Part shown: in pieces, positions 4,015 to 58,887 of the stretch | How the letters are laid out: each line of letters starts with the position of its first letter | Numbering within the stretch: the stretch's first letter is position 1 | Source: Methanoregulaceae archaeon | GTDB lineage: Archaea > Halobacteriota > Methanomicrobia > Methanomicrobiales > Methanospirillaceae | DNA length: 64,000 bases | Assembly (NCBI GenBank): GCA_015660965.1 | Contig: JACTVG010000004.1 | Span: 62,001 to 126,000 of the forward strand | Direction: 5' to 3' | The notes under the pieces: generated by a model | What the model saw: only the letters and a program-made list of their open reading frames with translations | What the model was told of the DNA's origin: nothing | The model's database searches: none | Program-made: the position numbers and the translations under genes

Positions 4015-4211
4015 TATCGATCATTCCTGCTCTTTTTATGGATTATTTGCGGTTCCAAGTAAAAAGCACATCATGATGCATCAAGATTTTCTGGTTGTAT
4101 CCAGAGGAGTGAATATAGATTTGACCGATTTGATCACGATAATTACTTTGTCCCCAAGCACTAACATTTTTCAATACTCTTGGGTATCCCGCCAAGATCT
4201 TGAGGGGTCAC

Positions 4212-7200
4212 GTGAAGGAAGTCTCTGCAAATTTTGACGCGAAATCAATTGAAAGCGAGGTGCGGGAATACTGGCACACACACGAAACTTACACACACGT
4301 TAAACAGTTGCGAAGTAAAGGAAAACCGTTTTTCTTTGTCGATGGCCCACCTTACACAACTGGACATATCCACTTAGGTACCGCTTGGAATAAAATCCTC
4401 AAAGACAGTATTTTACGATACCACCGGATGAATGGGCGGGATGTAATTGACCGTGCAGGTTATGACATGCACGGTTTACCTATCGAAGTGAAAGTTGAAC
4501 AAATGCTCGGTTTTGTGTCAAAAAAGGATATTGAATCGTTCGGTATCCAACCTTTTATCGAAAAATGTCGTGAGTTCGCAGTAAAGAATAAATTGCTGAT
4601 GGATAAACAATTCGAAAACCTTGGTGTCTGGCTTGACTTTGCCAACGCTTACCAAACAGTTAAACCAGGATATATCGAAGCAGCATGGTGGACCCTGGCT
4701 CGTGCTGATGAAAAAGGGATGCTTGAACGGGGTCATAGAGTTGTGAACTGGTGCCCGCGGTGTGAGACTGCAATAGCAGATGCTGAAGTGGAGTACTGGG
4801 ATGAGACAGACCCTTCAATTTTTGTAAAATTTCCACTCAAAGGAAAAGAGCACGAGTTCCTAGTTATTTGGACTACTACACCTTGGACACTACCTGCAAA
4901 CGTCGCGGTTGCCGTTGCAAAGGATTTCATTTATGCACAGGTGAAAGCGGTCAAGGACGGTAAAGAAGAGATTCTCTGGATTGCGGACGATCTCGTAGAA
5001 AGTGTCTTACGAAAAGGAAGATACAAGGATTATACGGTTCTTGATAAGCAGCTTGGTGCAACACTTGCCGGGAGGGAATATGATTCTCCTCTTGCAGAAT
5101 ATGTTCCACGTCAGAAGGACTTAAGTCACCGTTTGGTGCTGGCCGATTTTGTTACAATGGAAAATACCGGCTTGGTTCATATCGCTCCAGGACATGGATG
5201 GGACGATTTTGTACTTGGGGAAAAAGAGGGGCTTGATGTTTTCTGCCCGGTAGATGGTGCAGGACGTTTCACTGATGAGGCCGGTGCGTTCGCTGGTAAA
5301 TTTGTTAAAGAGGCAGATGCTGACGTGCTTGCAAGTCTCGGTGATAAACTTCTCGCAAAATCATCAGTTGTTCACAGATATGGCCACTGCTGGCGATGTA
5401 AAACTCCAATCATTTTCCGTGCAACATCACAATGGTTTATCAAAGCGGCTGAGATGCGTGATAAAATGCTTGATGAAGTCGCTACGGTTACTTGGTATCC
5501 GGAATGGGCTGGAAGCGCAAGGTTCTATGATTGGATAAAAGAGGCTCGCGATTGGTGCATCTCTAGACAACGGTACTGGGGGATTCCAATCCCGGTTTGG
5601 GTCTGTCAATCGTGTGATAAGTATCGCGTAATTGGTACAATACACGAACTCGAACAAGCAAGTGGGCACCCATTAAAAGATCCTCATCGTCCCTATGTTG
5701 ACACAATAACAATCTCATGCACCTGTGGCGGAACGATGAAGAGGGTTGAAGATATTTTTGATGTTTGGTTTGATTCTGCAGTCGCGTCTTGGGCAACGCT
5801 CGGTTATCCAGAGAAGACAACGGAGTTCAATAAATTCTGGCCACCAGAATTCATTACGGAAGGACAAGATCAGACCCGAGGCTGGTTTTATTCGCAGCTA
5901 GGCGCAAGTACGGTTGCATTCGAAAAGGCCCCATACAAGAGTGTTTTAATGCATGGATTTGCTCTTGATGCAGAAGGGAAGAAGATGTCAAAGAGCCTGG
6001 GCAACGTCGTTACACCAGAAGAAGTCATCGCCAAAGTTGGTGTTGATGTACTCCGGCTTTATGTACTCTCTTCATCTGCACCGTGGGATGATCTCAAATT
6101 TAACTGGGAGGGAATTTCAACTATTAACCGTGCTATAAACATTCTCTGGAATGTGTACCGATTCCCTCTGCCATATATGAAACTTGACAATTTTGAACCT
6201 GTATCTCACAATGGCATTTGGGATGGAACGTACGTAGCAGACCACATTGGGGAGATGCCAGATGAAGACCGTTGGATAATCTCGCATGTGAATTCAACCG
6301 CGACGCTTGTCGATACAGCGATGAAGGAATGCCAACTTCACCGGGCGGTTCGATCACTTATGACATTTATCCTTGAAGATCTCTCCCGTTGGTATGTTCA
6401 GCTCGTCCGCCCCCGTATGTGGCTAGAAGGTGAATCCGAGCAGAAGCGATTCGCTTATGAGACAATTTATTACGTTATGCGACGGCTAAATTGCATGCTT
6501 TCTCCATTTGCCCCCCATCTTACAGAGCATATCTACAGCAATCTCCGATGTAAACATGATCCAGAAAGTGTTCACATGCTAGATTGGTATTCCGGTGATG
6601 TTCGTTTTGTGGATCCAGTTCTGGAGACGGTAATGGAGACCATCCGATCATTCAATGATGCCGTAGCAAATGCACGACAGGCGGGTAAGCGAAAGCTTCG
6701 TTGGCCTGTTAGTGAGGTGATCGTAGTCACTGGAAAAAACGATGTCGTAACTGCAATCAACCGATTGAACACAATCTGTATGGATCGAGCTAATGCCCGA
6801 AAGGTGACAGTTATCACGGGATCATGGGATCGAATCCAATGGCATGCATCCCCAGTGATGAAGGTACTCGGCCCTGCTTTTGGTAAGAATTCACCGATAG
6901 TTAAAACTCTCATAGAATCTGCTGATGGATCGGCGCTTAAAAAAGAGATTGAAGCGGGCAAAATAGTGAAATTATCCGATGGCGTCAATAATTACGAGAT
7001 TAATGATTTACATCTCACATTTTCAGAAAAAATGCCGGAAAACGTCTTTTCGGCTCCAATGCAGGATGCTACGGTTTACGTCGATGTCAAACTCACCAAT
7101 GAGCTAGAAACAGAGGGGTGGACCCGAGAGATAATCCGTCGAATTCAAGAGATGCGTCGACAACTCGATCTTGCGGTGGAGGATTTCATTAGTGTTGAAA

Positions 7201-7424
7201 TATCTGTAAAAGACAATCGAGTTTATTCTCTACTCAATAAAGAAAAAATCGGATTGAAAATTGTAAGTGATTTTATTGCGAAAGAGGTTCGAGCAAAGGC
7301 ATCCCACGGGCAAGGGATTGGGTTATCTTTTGTCAAACCCGGTGATAAGATAAGAAAGCATCAGAACATAAAAGATTGGGATGTTGAAGGTGTAGGGATG
7401 ATAATCGGTATCTCACGCACTTAA
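4212..7424 (+). CDS. ileS: Isoleucyl-tRNA synthetase
   Basis: About 1070 residues, the normal size for archaeal/eukaryotic-type class Ia IleRS. The HIGH-type signature is HIHLGTAWNK near residue 55 and the KMSKS loop is GKKMSKSLGN near 593. The editing domain lies between, with TTPWTLPANVAVAV near 225. The C-terminal half has the anticodon-binding helical bundle. GTG at 4212 is chosen over TTG at 4200 because GAGGGG at 4202-4207 sits 4 nt upstream and the family begins close to this point. A TTTTTCAATAC box near 4167-4177 could be the promoter. The 3' end overlaps the convergent thg1 by 12 bp. Confidence 0.97.
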   Translation: MKEVSANFDAKSIESEVREYWHTHETYTHVKQLRSKGKPFFFVDGPPYTTGHIHLGTAWNKILKDSILRYHRMNGRDVIDRAGYDMHGLPIEVKVEQMLGFVSKKDIESFGIQPFIEKCREFAVKNKLLMDKQFENLGVWLDFANAYQTVKPGYIEAAWWTLARADEKGMLERGHRVVNWCPRCETAIADAEVEYWDETDPSIFVKFPLKGKEHEFLVIWTTTPWTLPANVAVAVAKDFIYAQVKAVKDGKEEILWIADDLVESVLRKGRYKDYTVLDKQLGATLAGREYDSPLAEYVPRQKDLSHRLVLADFVTMENTGLVHIAPGHGWDDFVLGEKEGLDVFCPVDGAGRFTDEAGAFAGKFVKEADADVLASLGDKLLAKSSVVHRYGHCWRCKTPIIFRATSQWFIKAAEMRDKMLDEVATVTWYPEWAGSARFYDWIKEARDWCISRQRYWGIPIPVWVCQSCDKYRVIGTIHELEQASGHPLKDPHRPYVDTITISCTCGGTMKRVEDIFDVWFDSAVASWATLGYPEKTTEFNKFWPPEFITEGQDQTRGWFYSQLGASTVAFEKAPYKSVLMHGFALDAEGKKMSKSLGNVVTPEEVIAKVGVDVLRLYVLSSSAPWDDLKFNWEGISTINRAINILWNVYRFPLPYMKLDNFEPVSHNGIWDGTYVADHIGEMPDEDRWIISHVNSTATLVDTAMKECQLHRAVRSLMTFILEDLSRWYVQLVRPRMWLEGESEQKRFAYETIYYVMRRLNCMLSPFAPHLTEHIYSNLRCKHDPESVHMLDWYSGDVRFVDPVLETVMETIRSFNDAVANARQAGKRKLRWPVSEVIVVTGKNDVVTAINRLNTICMDRANARKVTVITGSWDRIQWHASPVMKVLGPAFGKNSPIVKTLIESADGSALKKEIEAGKIVKLSDGVNNYEINDLHLTFSEKMPENVFSAPMQDATVYVDVKLTNELETEGWTREIIRRIQEMRRQLDLAVEDFISVEISVKDNRVYSLLNKEKIGLKIVSDFIAKEVRAKASHGQGIGLSFVKPGDKIRKHQNIKDWDVEGVGMIIGISRT

Positions 7425-8144
7425 TATCAATTTTTTTAGGAATACGCGCCCTTCTTGCGAATTAAACAGAGGTAAGTCGTTGTCGACAGTAACGCTGGTT
7501 CGTACGGCCTTCACTTTTTGGTGGGTTAAAGGATTATATCCTTCCTTTTCTGTAGTTTTTTTATAAATGAGAACCCCTCGTCGCTGCCAAGTGAGGGTTT
7601 TTGCAAGATTGACACCACGTGCGTGCATAAGCTCATGCATGTCCGATGACGACATACCCTTCAACTTTGCGGCCGCTTGACGAGGTTTCATACCACCGAC
7701 GATAAGCGCTTGTTGACAATAAGCATTCAAATGGTTACGCCACGCTTCTTCCTGCCGGTTGATCAAATACTCTATGGCATATTCTGGTGTTGCAGGGATA
7801 ACACGGCTGTCAAAGGAAATAGGTTCGGCACATTCTAACGCAATGGTAAGTGCACTCGCTGCAAATGAGGCAGCAACAGAATCGATCTTCTCGACACGTC
7901 CAGAGAAGGGGAGCTTTGTAACATATAAATTGATCTCGTCGGAAAACGTGAAGGCAAATTCAGGGGAGAGACCACTATCAGCGACCAGAGAACGGCAAAC
8001 GGCTGACATCGCCTTGGAGAAACCCACATCAAAAGGTTTCTTGAGACCAAGGATATGGGCAAGCCGGTGAAATGCTCTTCCATCCAGACGAATAATAATA
8101 GGGGGGACGGAAGTTATTGAGGCAAATAGTTCACGGTTCTCCAT
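7413..8144 (-). CDS. thg1: tRNA-His guanylyltransferase Thg1
   Basis: 243 residues. The polymerase-palm metal site is visible: the first Asp in IIIRLDGRAFHRL (residues 17-29) and the second in FAFTFSDEINLY (about 64-75). The later part (EEAWRNHLNAYCQQAL, GMSSSDMHELMHARG) is also typical of Thg1. Thg1 enzymes add a nucleotide to the 5' end of tRNA in the 3'-5' direction, classically G-1 of tRNA-His. That activity looks directly needed here, because the tRNA-His gene at 22505-22577 does not encode G-1. The stop overlaps the end of ileS by 12 bp. The PRC-barrel gene lies 54 bp upstream on the same strand and could share its transcript. Confidence 0.93.
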   Translation of the reverse strand: MENRELFASITSVPPIIIRLDGRAFHRLAHILGLKKPFDVGFSKAMSAVCRSLVADSGLSPEFAFTFSDEINLYVTKLPFSGRVEKIDSVAASFAASALTIALECAEPISFDSRVIPATPEYAIEYLINRQEEAWRNHLNAYCQQALIVGGMKPRQAAAKLKGMSSSDMHELMHARGVNLAKTLTWQRRGVLIYKKTTEKEGYNPLTHQKVKAVRTSVTVDNDLPLFNSQEGRVFLKKLILSA

Positions 8145-8198: not shown

Positions 8199-8462
8199 TT
8201 ACTCAATCGTCGAGGACTGGGTGAATGCCCCAGGTAGGTGGCGGATAAGAACGATATCATCAATGGCGCTGATAATGCGGTATGGGATTTTCAAGCCTTT
8301 GAAGTTTTTCAAATCAACCAGTTGATCGTTAACTTTTCCTACAACAATCGAATCAATTTTCTTCTGATCAACATCTAAAAGGACATCCTCGACTTCTCCT
8401 ACAAACATTCCCTTCTCAGTGTAGATCAAAAGCCCGAACAATTCTGTTATCTGGGTTTGCAT
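8199..8462 (-). CDS. PRC-barrel domain protein
   Basis: 87 residues from ATG 8462 (an upstream in-frame TTG at 8471 would add three residues). The single small beta-barrel pattern is clear: LFGLLIYTEKGMFVGEVEDV, then DSIVVGK, then IPYRIISAIDDIVLI. Archaeal stand-alone PRC-barrel proteins are widespread in methanogens; a role in RNA processing or in protein assemblies has been proposed but not settled. It is divergent from the M50 protease gene, and both starts flank a symmetrical A+T-rich box at 8475-8490. Confidence 0.85.
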   Translation of the reverse strand: MQTQITELFGLLIYTEKGMFVGEVEDVLLDVDQKKIDSIVVGKVNDQLVDLKNFKGLKIPYRIISAIDDIVLIRHLPGAFTQSSTIE

Positions 8463-8474
8463 CGCTATCAATTG

Positions 8475-22504: not shown

Positions 22505-22577
22505 GGCCAGGGCCGAGATTTGAACCCGGGTCGAGGGATCCACAGTCCCCTAGGATAACCAACTACCCCACCCTGGC
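22505..22577 (-). tRNA. tRNA-His (GTG) lacking an encoded G-1
   Basis: Read on the minus strand: acceptor GCCAGGG (22577-22571) pairs with CCCTGGC (22512-22506), the discriminator is C (22505), the anticodon arm is GGGGA-CTGTGGA-TCCCT with anticodon GTG, and the T loop is TTCAAAT. The base before the acceptor (22578) reads T, so the G-1 identity nucleotide of tRNA-His is not in the gene. A CCTTAAATAG TATA box lies at 22608-22617, giving a leader of a few nucleotides. CCA is not encoded. Confidence 0.97.
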
Positions 22578-22778
22578 AGATTTCCCTTTTACATTGGAAG
22601 TGTTTTCTATTTAAGGTATCCTTGTGTGATGACACGAGAGAATATTAACTGAATTATGACAAGTGATCTCAAAATAAATATACCGACGCCATTTTCGGTG
22701 ACTATTAATATCCGTATGCGTCCAGTATTAATCAGGTTGGCATGGACACTTTGTCCTTAGGTTCATAAAATTTCAGGA

Positions 22779-57685: not shown

Positions 57686-58870
57686 TTATTTTGTTGATGC
57701 CAACTCGATCATCGTCATCCATCGGTTGCCAGTTAGGTCAAGCGGAATACCGGCCATCTGTGCCGGTGTAAGTCCACCAATCCCTTGATGTGGTCGGATG
57801 TAATTGTAATACGTTTGTAATCCTGTTGCAAACTCCTGAGCACCAACAGCACTATTAAGACTTCGCATTACTTTTGTCCTCTCGCGGAAAGTTGAGTTTA
57901 ACCGTTCAAGAACATTGTTATTCGGATGAATCTCAAAATTCTTGAGTCTCACATGTGGGTTGTGGATGCGTGCGCCGAAATCAAAGAACTCATCCTTGAT
58001 TGCATCATTGTAGGATTGTAACCCATCAGTAACGATTGCATCTGGTCTCTTGTTGGTAATCTGTTTAGCTTGTTTCAAGGCTTTCTTTGCATCATTAACA
58101 TCCCGTCCTTCAGTTACCTGACATGCAAGAAGATACCGTGTTTTGCTGTCCATGACGTTCCAGATCCACTGGTAATACCGCTTCTGATCCTCTTTCTTGA
58201 TGAATACGGTTGTTTCGTCACCATGCCAGATATTGCCAACATCAACTTTGTTCTTCTCAGCGTATTTACCGAGAAGCTTGAGATACTTCTTGATCCACCG
58301 GAGAACGGTTGTGTGAACGACGATAACCTTATGGAACTGTTTCAAGTGATCCACAATCTTCCGATCTGAAAGTCCCTTGAAGTAAAGGTCAAGTGTTAGC
58401 GTGATACTTTCAGGAGTGTGCTTCATCCGGTTAAATCCAAGCTCGTGGGTAAATCTATGGTTACAATCTTTGCATCCATAGATCTGAACTTCTCCACGCT
58501 GGTTCTTTCTTTTACCTCGGCTGATGATATTGACACTCTTGCAGTATGGACAGGAAATGATGGGGTTGACTTTCTCCAATTGCTTGTCGGTAGCGTTTCC
58601 CTCTATATCGTTTTTCAATGTCTGCGAAAATTGAACCGCATAGATGTGCTTGCAGATCACGTTTCGGGTTGTGTGATCGGGGCAAGTGCATATCCAATCG
58701 TATGGATGACGGCTGTCACGGTGATTCACGAATTTCCGTGATACTTGATAGTAAGCATCCTTTGACTGTGATCGAACATCCCATACGTTCTTATCGGTTT
58801 GGATAACTGTGTCCTGTTGTGAGAGAATTGCCAGTCCTCTAAGTTCCCTCGGATTGGTTAGTTGGTGCAT
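57686..58870 (-). mobile_element. SWIM-domain DDE transposase (insertion sequence gene)
   Basis: About 394 residues from ATG 58870. Order of domains: SWIM-type zinc finger (CTCPDH ... CKHIYAV) near 62-85, a zinc ribbon (CPYCKSVN ... GCKDCNHRF) near 110-140, helix-turn-helix (SDRKIVDHLKQFH) near 168, and a DDE core with GDETTVF near 215, VTDGLQSY near 285 and NVLERLNSTFRERTK near 320, the D-D-E of IS6-like enzymes. It ends RWMTMIELASTK. Terminal inverted repeats were not found by eye, so the element's edges are not set. The gene is intact. Confidence 0.9.
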
Positions 58871-58887
58871 TTTCAATCACTTCATTA

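Follow-up and report, generated by a model that had tools for sequence, protein, structure and literature searches.

The locus described here raises the question of how a tRNA-His acquires the guanosine at position -1 (G-1) when its gene does not encode one. The gene lies in a stretch of 64,000 nucleotides from a Methanoregulaceae archaeon (GCA_015660965.1, contig JACTVG010000004.1), referred to herein as the window, which also encodes a Thg1 protein:

22577..22505, minus strand: tRNA-His(GTG) gene, positions 1-73 (ARAGORN and reading of the sequence)
22578, minus strand: position -1 of tRNA-His, T (U in the RNA) and not G (sequence; a non-G base is kept in 56/58 genomes of the order)
7413..8144, minus strand: Thg1 or Thg1-like protein (TLP), an archaeal-type 3'-5' polymerase of 243 aa (PF04446, 5axk match)

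The original prediction was that G-1 is added to this tRNA after transcription, and this is supported by the single U-1 tRNA-His gene, the intact Thg1, the type of histidyl-tRNA synthetase (HisRS) and a survey of the phylum. We infer that RNase P very likely cuts the transcript at +1 and that Thg1 then adds the G-1 needed for histidine charging, both here and in most of the order Methanomicrobiales (a name taken from the public record of genome G048, discussed below).

On the minus strand the tRNA-His gene reads ...GGGAAATC-T(-1)-GCCAGGG...CCCTGGC-C73-TAATT, and in full, between the flanks AATCT and TAATT, GCCAGGGTGGGGTAGTTGGTTATCCTAGGGGACTGTGGATCCCTCGACCCGGGTTCAAATCTCGGCCCTGGCC. Thus G1:C72 and C73 are present, CCA and an intron are absent, and both ARAGORN and the strand reading bear out the T before the acceptor stem and the C73 that had been noted initially. 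With T at 22578, the gene falls outside the class of tRNA-His genes that encode a G opposite C73. The search proposed at the outset for a second tRNA-His gene carrying G-1 was run on the whole genome, a metagenome-assembled genome (MAG) of 170 contigs (99.88% complete, contamination estimate 3.6%). Every one of its 52 RF00005 covariance hits was read with ARAGORN; a single tRNA-His was present, and no further one was found among these hits. T is the commonest -1 base of the genome (29/53 distinct tRNA genes), so the leader of tRNA-His is ordinary and the usual RNase P cut at +1 would be expected. Across 58 genomes of the order, including that of the window, the -1 base of tRNA-His is T in 53, C in 2, A in 1 and G in 2; with a non-G base in 56 of them, the U-1 of the window is not a chance occurrence.

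The Thg1 open reading frame contains the catalytic domain (PF04446, E = 1.4e-21, 77.2 bits against a cut-off of 29.2). Its closest solved structure is the Methanosarcina acetivorans TLP (PDB 5axk, E = 5.6e-65), to which it aligns without gaps at 46% identity over 240 residues. The metal-binding residues D21 and D69 occupy the same positions in both proteins, as anticipated by the original prediction that both metal Asp residues are intact, and E70, R83, K86, R136 and N137 are likewise conserved. By E-value the protein is nearer to TLPs (5axk, 5.6e-65; 4kgk, a Thg1-like protein, 2.7e-14) than to eukaryotic Thg1 (3otb, tRNA-His guanylyltransferase, 3.1e-10). Judged from its sequence, it is a member of the archaeal-type TLP clade, and templated 3'-5' addition is predicted. 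Archaeal TLPs, including those of M. acetivorans and M. barkeri, add a single templated G-1 opposite C73 in vitro, with the M. acetivorans TLP halting once the first G is in place (PMC6471195).

In E. coli HisRS, Q118 and R123 contact C73 and G-1 (PMC10100707). The HisRS of the window's genome carries the motif FRYERPQKGRYRQF (PQKGRYRQF, with the Q and R positions), in which the equivalent Gln and Arg are kept; the motif of the G-1-encoding G048 is identical. By this standard motif the enzyme is of the G-1-reading type, and the unchanged Gln and Arg argue that it was not rebuilt at those positions for G-1 independence. Systems with a G-1-independent HisRS lack Thg1 and have an altered motif 2; the window organism has Thg1 and an unaltered motif.

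Taken together, these components suggest the following pathway. With no G-1 encoded, RNase P would remove the tRNA-His leader at the usual place, leaving G+1, and CCA would be joined to the 3' end before or after G-1 addition. The TLP encoded in the window would then activate the 5' end and add one G opposite C73, and the standard HisRS would read the resulting G-1:C73 pair.

This pathway predicts that Thg1 should be lost only where G-1 is encoded. We searched 393 genomes of the phylum with a Thg1 profile and with tRNA-His patterns that either include G-1 or lack it; a covariance model read part of the genomes that the patterns missed (short D-loops, introns, haloarchaeal U1). There were 160 genomes with Thg1 and no encoded G-1, and five with neither (completeness 75, 77, 84, 86 and 94%). 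G-1 was encoded together with Thg1 in 37 genomes (Methanosarcina-like g79 and g90, f6 g29 and some f10) and without Thg1 in 63 (48 of these with a completeness of 90% or more). Hence, of the 68 genomes that lack Thg1 and whose tRNA-His was readable, 63 encode G-1, the other five being incomplete assemblies. The Thg1-less G-1 encoders span many families (f12, f15, f18, f20, f25, f26, f28 and f32, parts of f9 and f31, haloarchaeal families) and include G048. One apparent exception, G033, with C-1 and no Thg1, was rejected as an assembly gap, as its IleRS neighbour and its HisRS are missing as well. Since lineages without an encoded G-1 nearly always keep Thg1, and those without Thg1 encode the G, Thg1 very probably carries out an essential G-1 addition in the window organism.

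Within the order part of this sample (n = 83), G-1 is encoded in 8 genomes and not in 75, and Thg1 is found in 82; the sole genome without it, G048, is a G-1 encoder. The remaining seven encoders (G056, G241, G246, G293, G341, G361 and G366) belong to genus g29 of family f6, whose eighth genome, G199, has A-1. All eight have Thg1, so the -1 base shifts while Thg1 is present.

G048 is the MAG 'Methanomicrobiales archaeon A05DMB-I-03' (~98% complete), identified by a match of 100% over 3500 bases between contig JARYLJ010000028.1 and G048:C2. The gene order in its relatives is M50-CBS, PRC, Thg1, IleRS. G048 retains M50-CBS and PRC, followed by ~850 bases of unrelated DNA up to the contig end; its IleRS is also present, with ~640 bases of unrelated DNA beyond.

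G048:C65:27277-27528 (L326): PRC-barrel gene of G048, adjoining M50-CBS

Thg1 was found neither in these two flanks (850 and 640 bases) nor when the whole genome (98% complete) was searched with the Thg1 profile; a copy inside an assembly gap, while conceivable, would imply a gene order that none of the relatives shows. As the PRC-Thg1 pair is also present in distant families, the loss in G048 appears to be a derived state. GTDB groups G048 with family f3, whereas in the HisRS tree it takes a basal position in the order, modestly supported, and its G-1 may have been either regained or retained.

A different reading of the same genes is that Thg1 repairs tRNA 5' ends, that HisRS charges tRNA-His lacking G-1, and that the link with G-1 reflects shared ancestry only. 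Charging without G-1 does occur in some alphaproteobacteria, Acanthamoeba and Trypanosoma, and the retention of Thg1 in the 37 G-1-encoding genomes would fit a repair role. We nevertheless regard this as unlikely, because the Gln and Arg contacts for C73 and G-1 are intact in the HisRS of the window organism, whose motif is the same as in the G-1 encoder G048, and because Thg1-less genomes encode G-1 with no exception beyond the five incomplete assemblies. Alternatively, RNase P could cut a base before the usual site, so that U-1 remains opposite C73, and HisRS could take any -1 base. The Aeropyrum enzyme accepts A-1 and C-1 as well (PMC9976931), and the strong conservation of U-1 in the order (53/58) would be in keeping with such a system. 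However, U-1 is merely the commonest leader base of this genome, relatives without G-1 carry C-1 or A-1 too, and U-1 lacks the kind of pairing with C73 by which G-1 shifts RNase P. An early cut would also leave the encoding of G by Thg1-less genomes unexplained, and we consider it very unlikely. That a second tRNA-His gene with G-1 lies in an unassembled part of the genome is extremely improbable: although the MAG is in 170 contigs, its near completeness and its one tRNA-His among 52 hits speak against this, as does the finding that relatives in the phylum have at most one real tRNA-His gene each, with the exception of G186.

Several observations weigh against G-1 addition by Thg1 as the pathway used here. 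The Fisher p-value for the association between G-1 and Thg1 across the survey (1.7e-28) takes no account of relatedness. A small HisRS tree of 21 rows, with 4 changes in Thg1 and 6 in the -1 base, provided too few pairs for an independent-pairs test; its supported branches gave one pair, in the same direction in 0.9 of draws and never in the opposite one, and the haloarchaeal row of this tree was probably mis-extracted (very long branch, motif absent). Thg1 loss within the order is a single case, and its coincidence with an encoded G-1 in G048 would be expected by chance about 1 in 10 times (8/83), so that the within-order argument rests on the details of G048. TLPs favour 5'-truncated tRNAs in vitro (PMC6471195), and RNA-seq of Methanopyrus kandleri contained no G-1 reads despite the presence of Thg1 (PMC3695527). 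Finally, the 37 genomes with both an encoded G-1 and Thg1 indicate that the enzyme is not everywhere kept for G-1 addition alone; they call for either a second role or a G-1 that was regained recently, and Thg1 could have another role besides G-1 addition.

The immediate neighbours of Thg1 in the window are:

8199..8471, minus strand: PRC-barrel protein (PF05239), immediately upstream of Thg1 and co-oriented with it
4200..7424, plus strand: isoleucyl-tRNA synthetase (IleRS), convergent neighbour of Thg1 (Pfam)

IleRS adjoins Thg1 in the same arrangement in G038, G043, G053 and G026 and marks the Thg1 site. The PRC-Thg1 gene pair was seen in 38/38 sampled loci; this pairing was described in archaea in 2010, and a partnership was suggested there (PMC2904730). 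A PRC relative was found in 31/31 genomes tested, including all 17 of those without Thg1, G048 among them, which rules out a dedicated partnership and implies a role of the PRC protein apart from Thg1. The PRC-barrel gene is also retained without Thg1 in haloarchaea-like and Archaeoglobi-like families. Elsewhere in the window, an open reading frame at 57686-58876 (minus strand), which by eye resembles a DDE-type transposase whose N-terminal part is zinc-binding-like, is probably an insertion sequence.

Other observations concern tRNA genes in the genomes searched. One 4.7 kb contig (G000:C13; L001, L002, L030) in the assembly that contains the window carries Arg, Lys and Met tRNA genes with CCA encoded; these differ from the remaining tRNA genes there, and the contig is probably contamination. 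In the Thg1-bearing f9 genera, repeated searches did not find an intact tRNA-His. One such genome has a tRNA-His-like gene (L278; G179:C10:17040-17076) with A at -1 that ends after the T-loop, its 3' acceptor strand being replaced by unrelated DNA; the tRNA-His of its congeners was likewise not found. L278 may represent a gene that has been interrupted, split or permuted, or may be left over from an integration event. Introns after position 37 are present in the tRNA-His genes L227, L229, L233, L235 and L267 (families f28, f19, f16 and f24).

Among known systems, the M. acetivorans TLP (PDB 5axk-5axn) shares with the window its family, C73 in the tRNA and, in related loci, the PRC-barrel neighbour. 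The genome in our sample that fits this species, G405, encodes G-1, whereas the window organism does not. In G405, the largest Methanosarcina-like genome (5.8 Mb), the Thg1 frame is only 144 aa (G405:C1:951549-951908). M. acetivorans is known to have an in-frame UAG (pyrrolysine) in this gene, with which the short frame agrees, suggesting that G405 is that species; its encoded G-1 would then explain why the M. acetivorans Thg1 looked redundant. The comparison with eukaryotes made in the original prediction holds in outline, as in yeast and human G-1 is absent from the gene and is added after RNase P cleavage for use by HisRS, as would be the case here. It does not extend to the chemistry: eukaryotic tRNA-His has A73 and receives an untemplated G guided by the anticodon, whereas the window combines C73 with an archaeal-type TLP predicted to add a templated G, and the structure-match alignment shows that this protein lacks the HINNLYN stretch of the eukaryotic enzyme. 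Alphaproteobacteria with a G-1-independent tRNA-His/HisRS system also do not encode G-1, but they lack Thg1 and their HisRS is altered (PMC4284800), in contrast to the Thg1, C73 and standard HisRS motif found here. For M. kandleri, a distant methanogen with Thg1, G-1 addition by a guanylyltransferase has been assumed (PMC3695527).

Post-transcriptional G-1 addition in archaea is thus already known or proposed, and its distribution may be published in part. Earlier work has reported the enzyme and its reaction, as well as the proposal that a genomic G-1 permits Thg1 loss (PMC2904730), while according to a 2019 review (PMC6471195) G-1 is encoded in most archaea, TLPs had not been linked to tRNA-His identity in vivo, and a function of this kind would often be redundant. 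Our analysis adds the extent of the phenomenon, which extends over most of one order and across many families in the phylum, and the near-absence of exceptions, together with a single-gene check, a HisRS check and the dissection of a natural loss in G048. The genus that yielded the best-studied archaeal TLP seems to encode G-1; methanogen orders without G-1 but with Thg1 are the right organisms for a direct test of the TLP role. On balance, it is likely that nearly the whole of Methanomicrobiales and many other lineages of the phylum depend on a TLP for tRNA-His identity, that archaeal TLPs are selected mainly for G-1 addition rather than for repair, and that Thg1 is lost only once G-1 has been rewritten in the gene. 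Genomes with both G-1 and Thg1 would be the living intermediates and A05DMB-I-03 the finished case, its coupled loss suggesting the order of events by which the pathway disappears.
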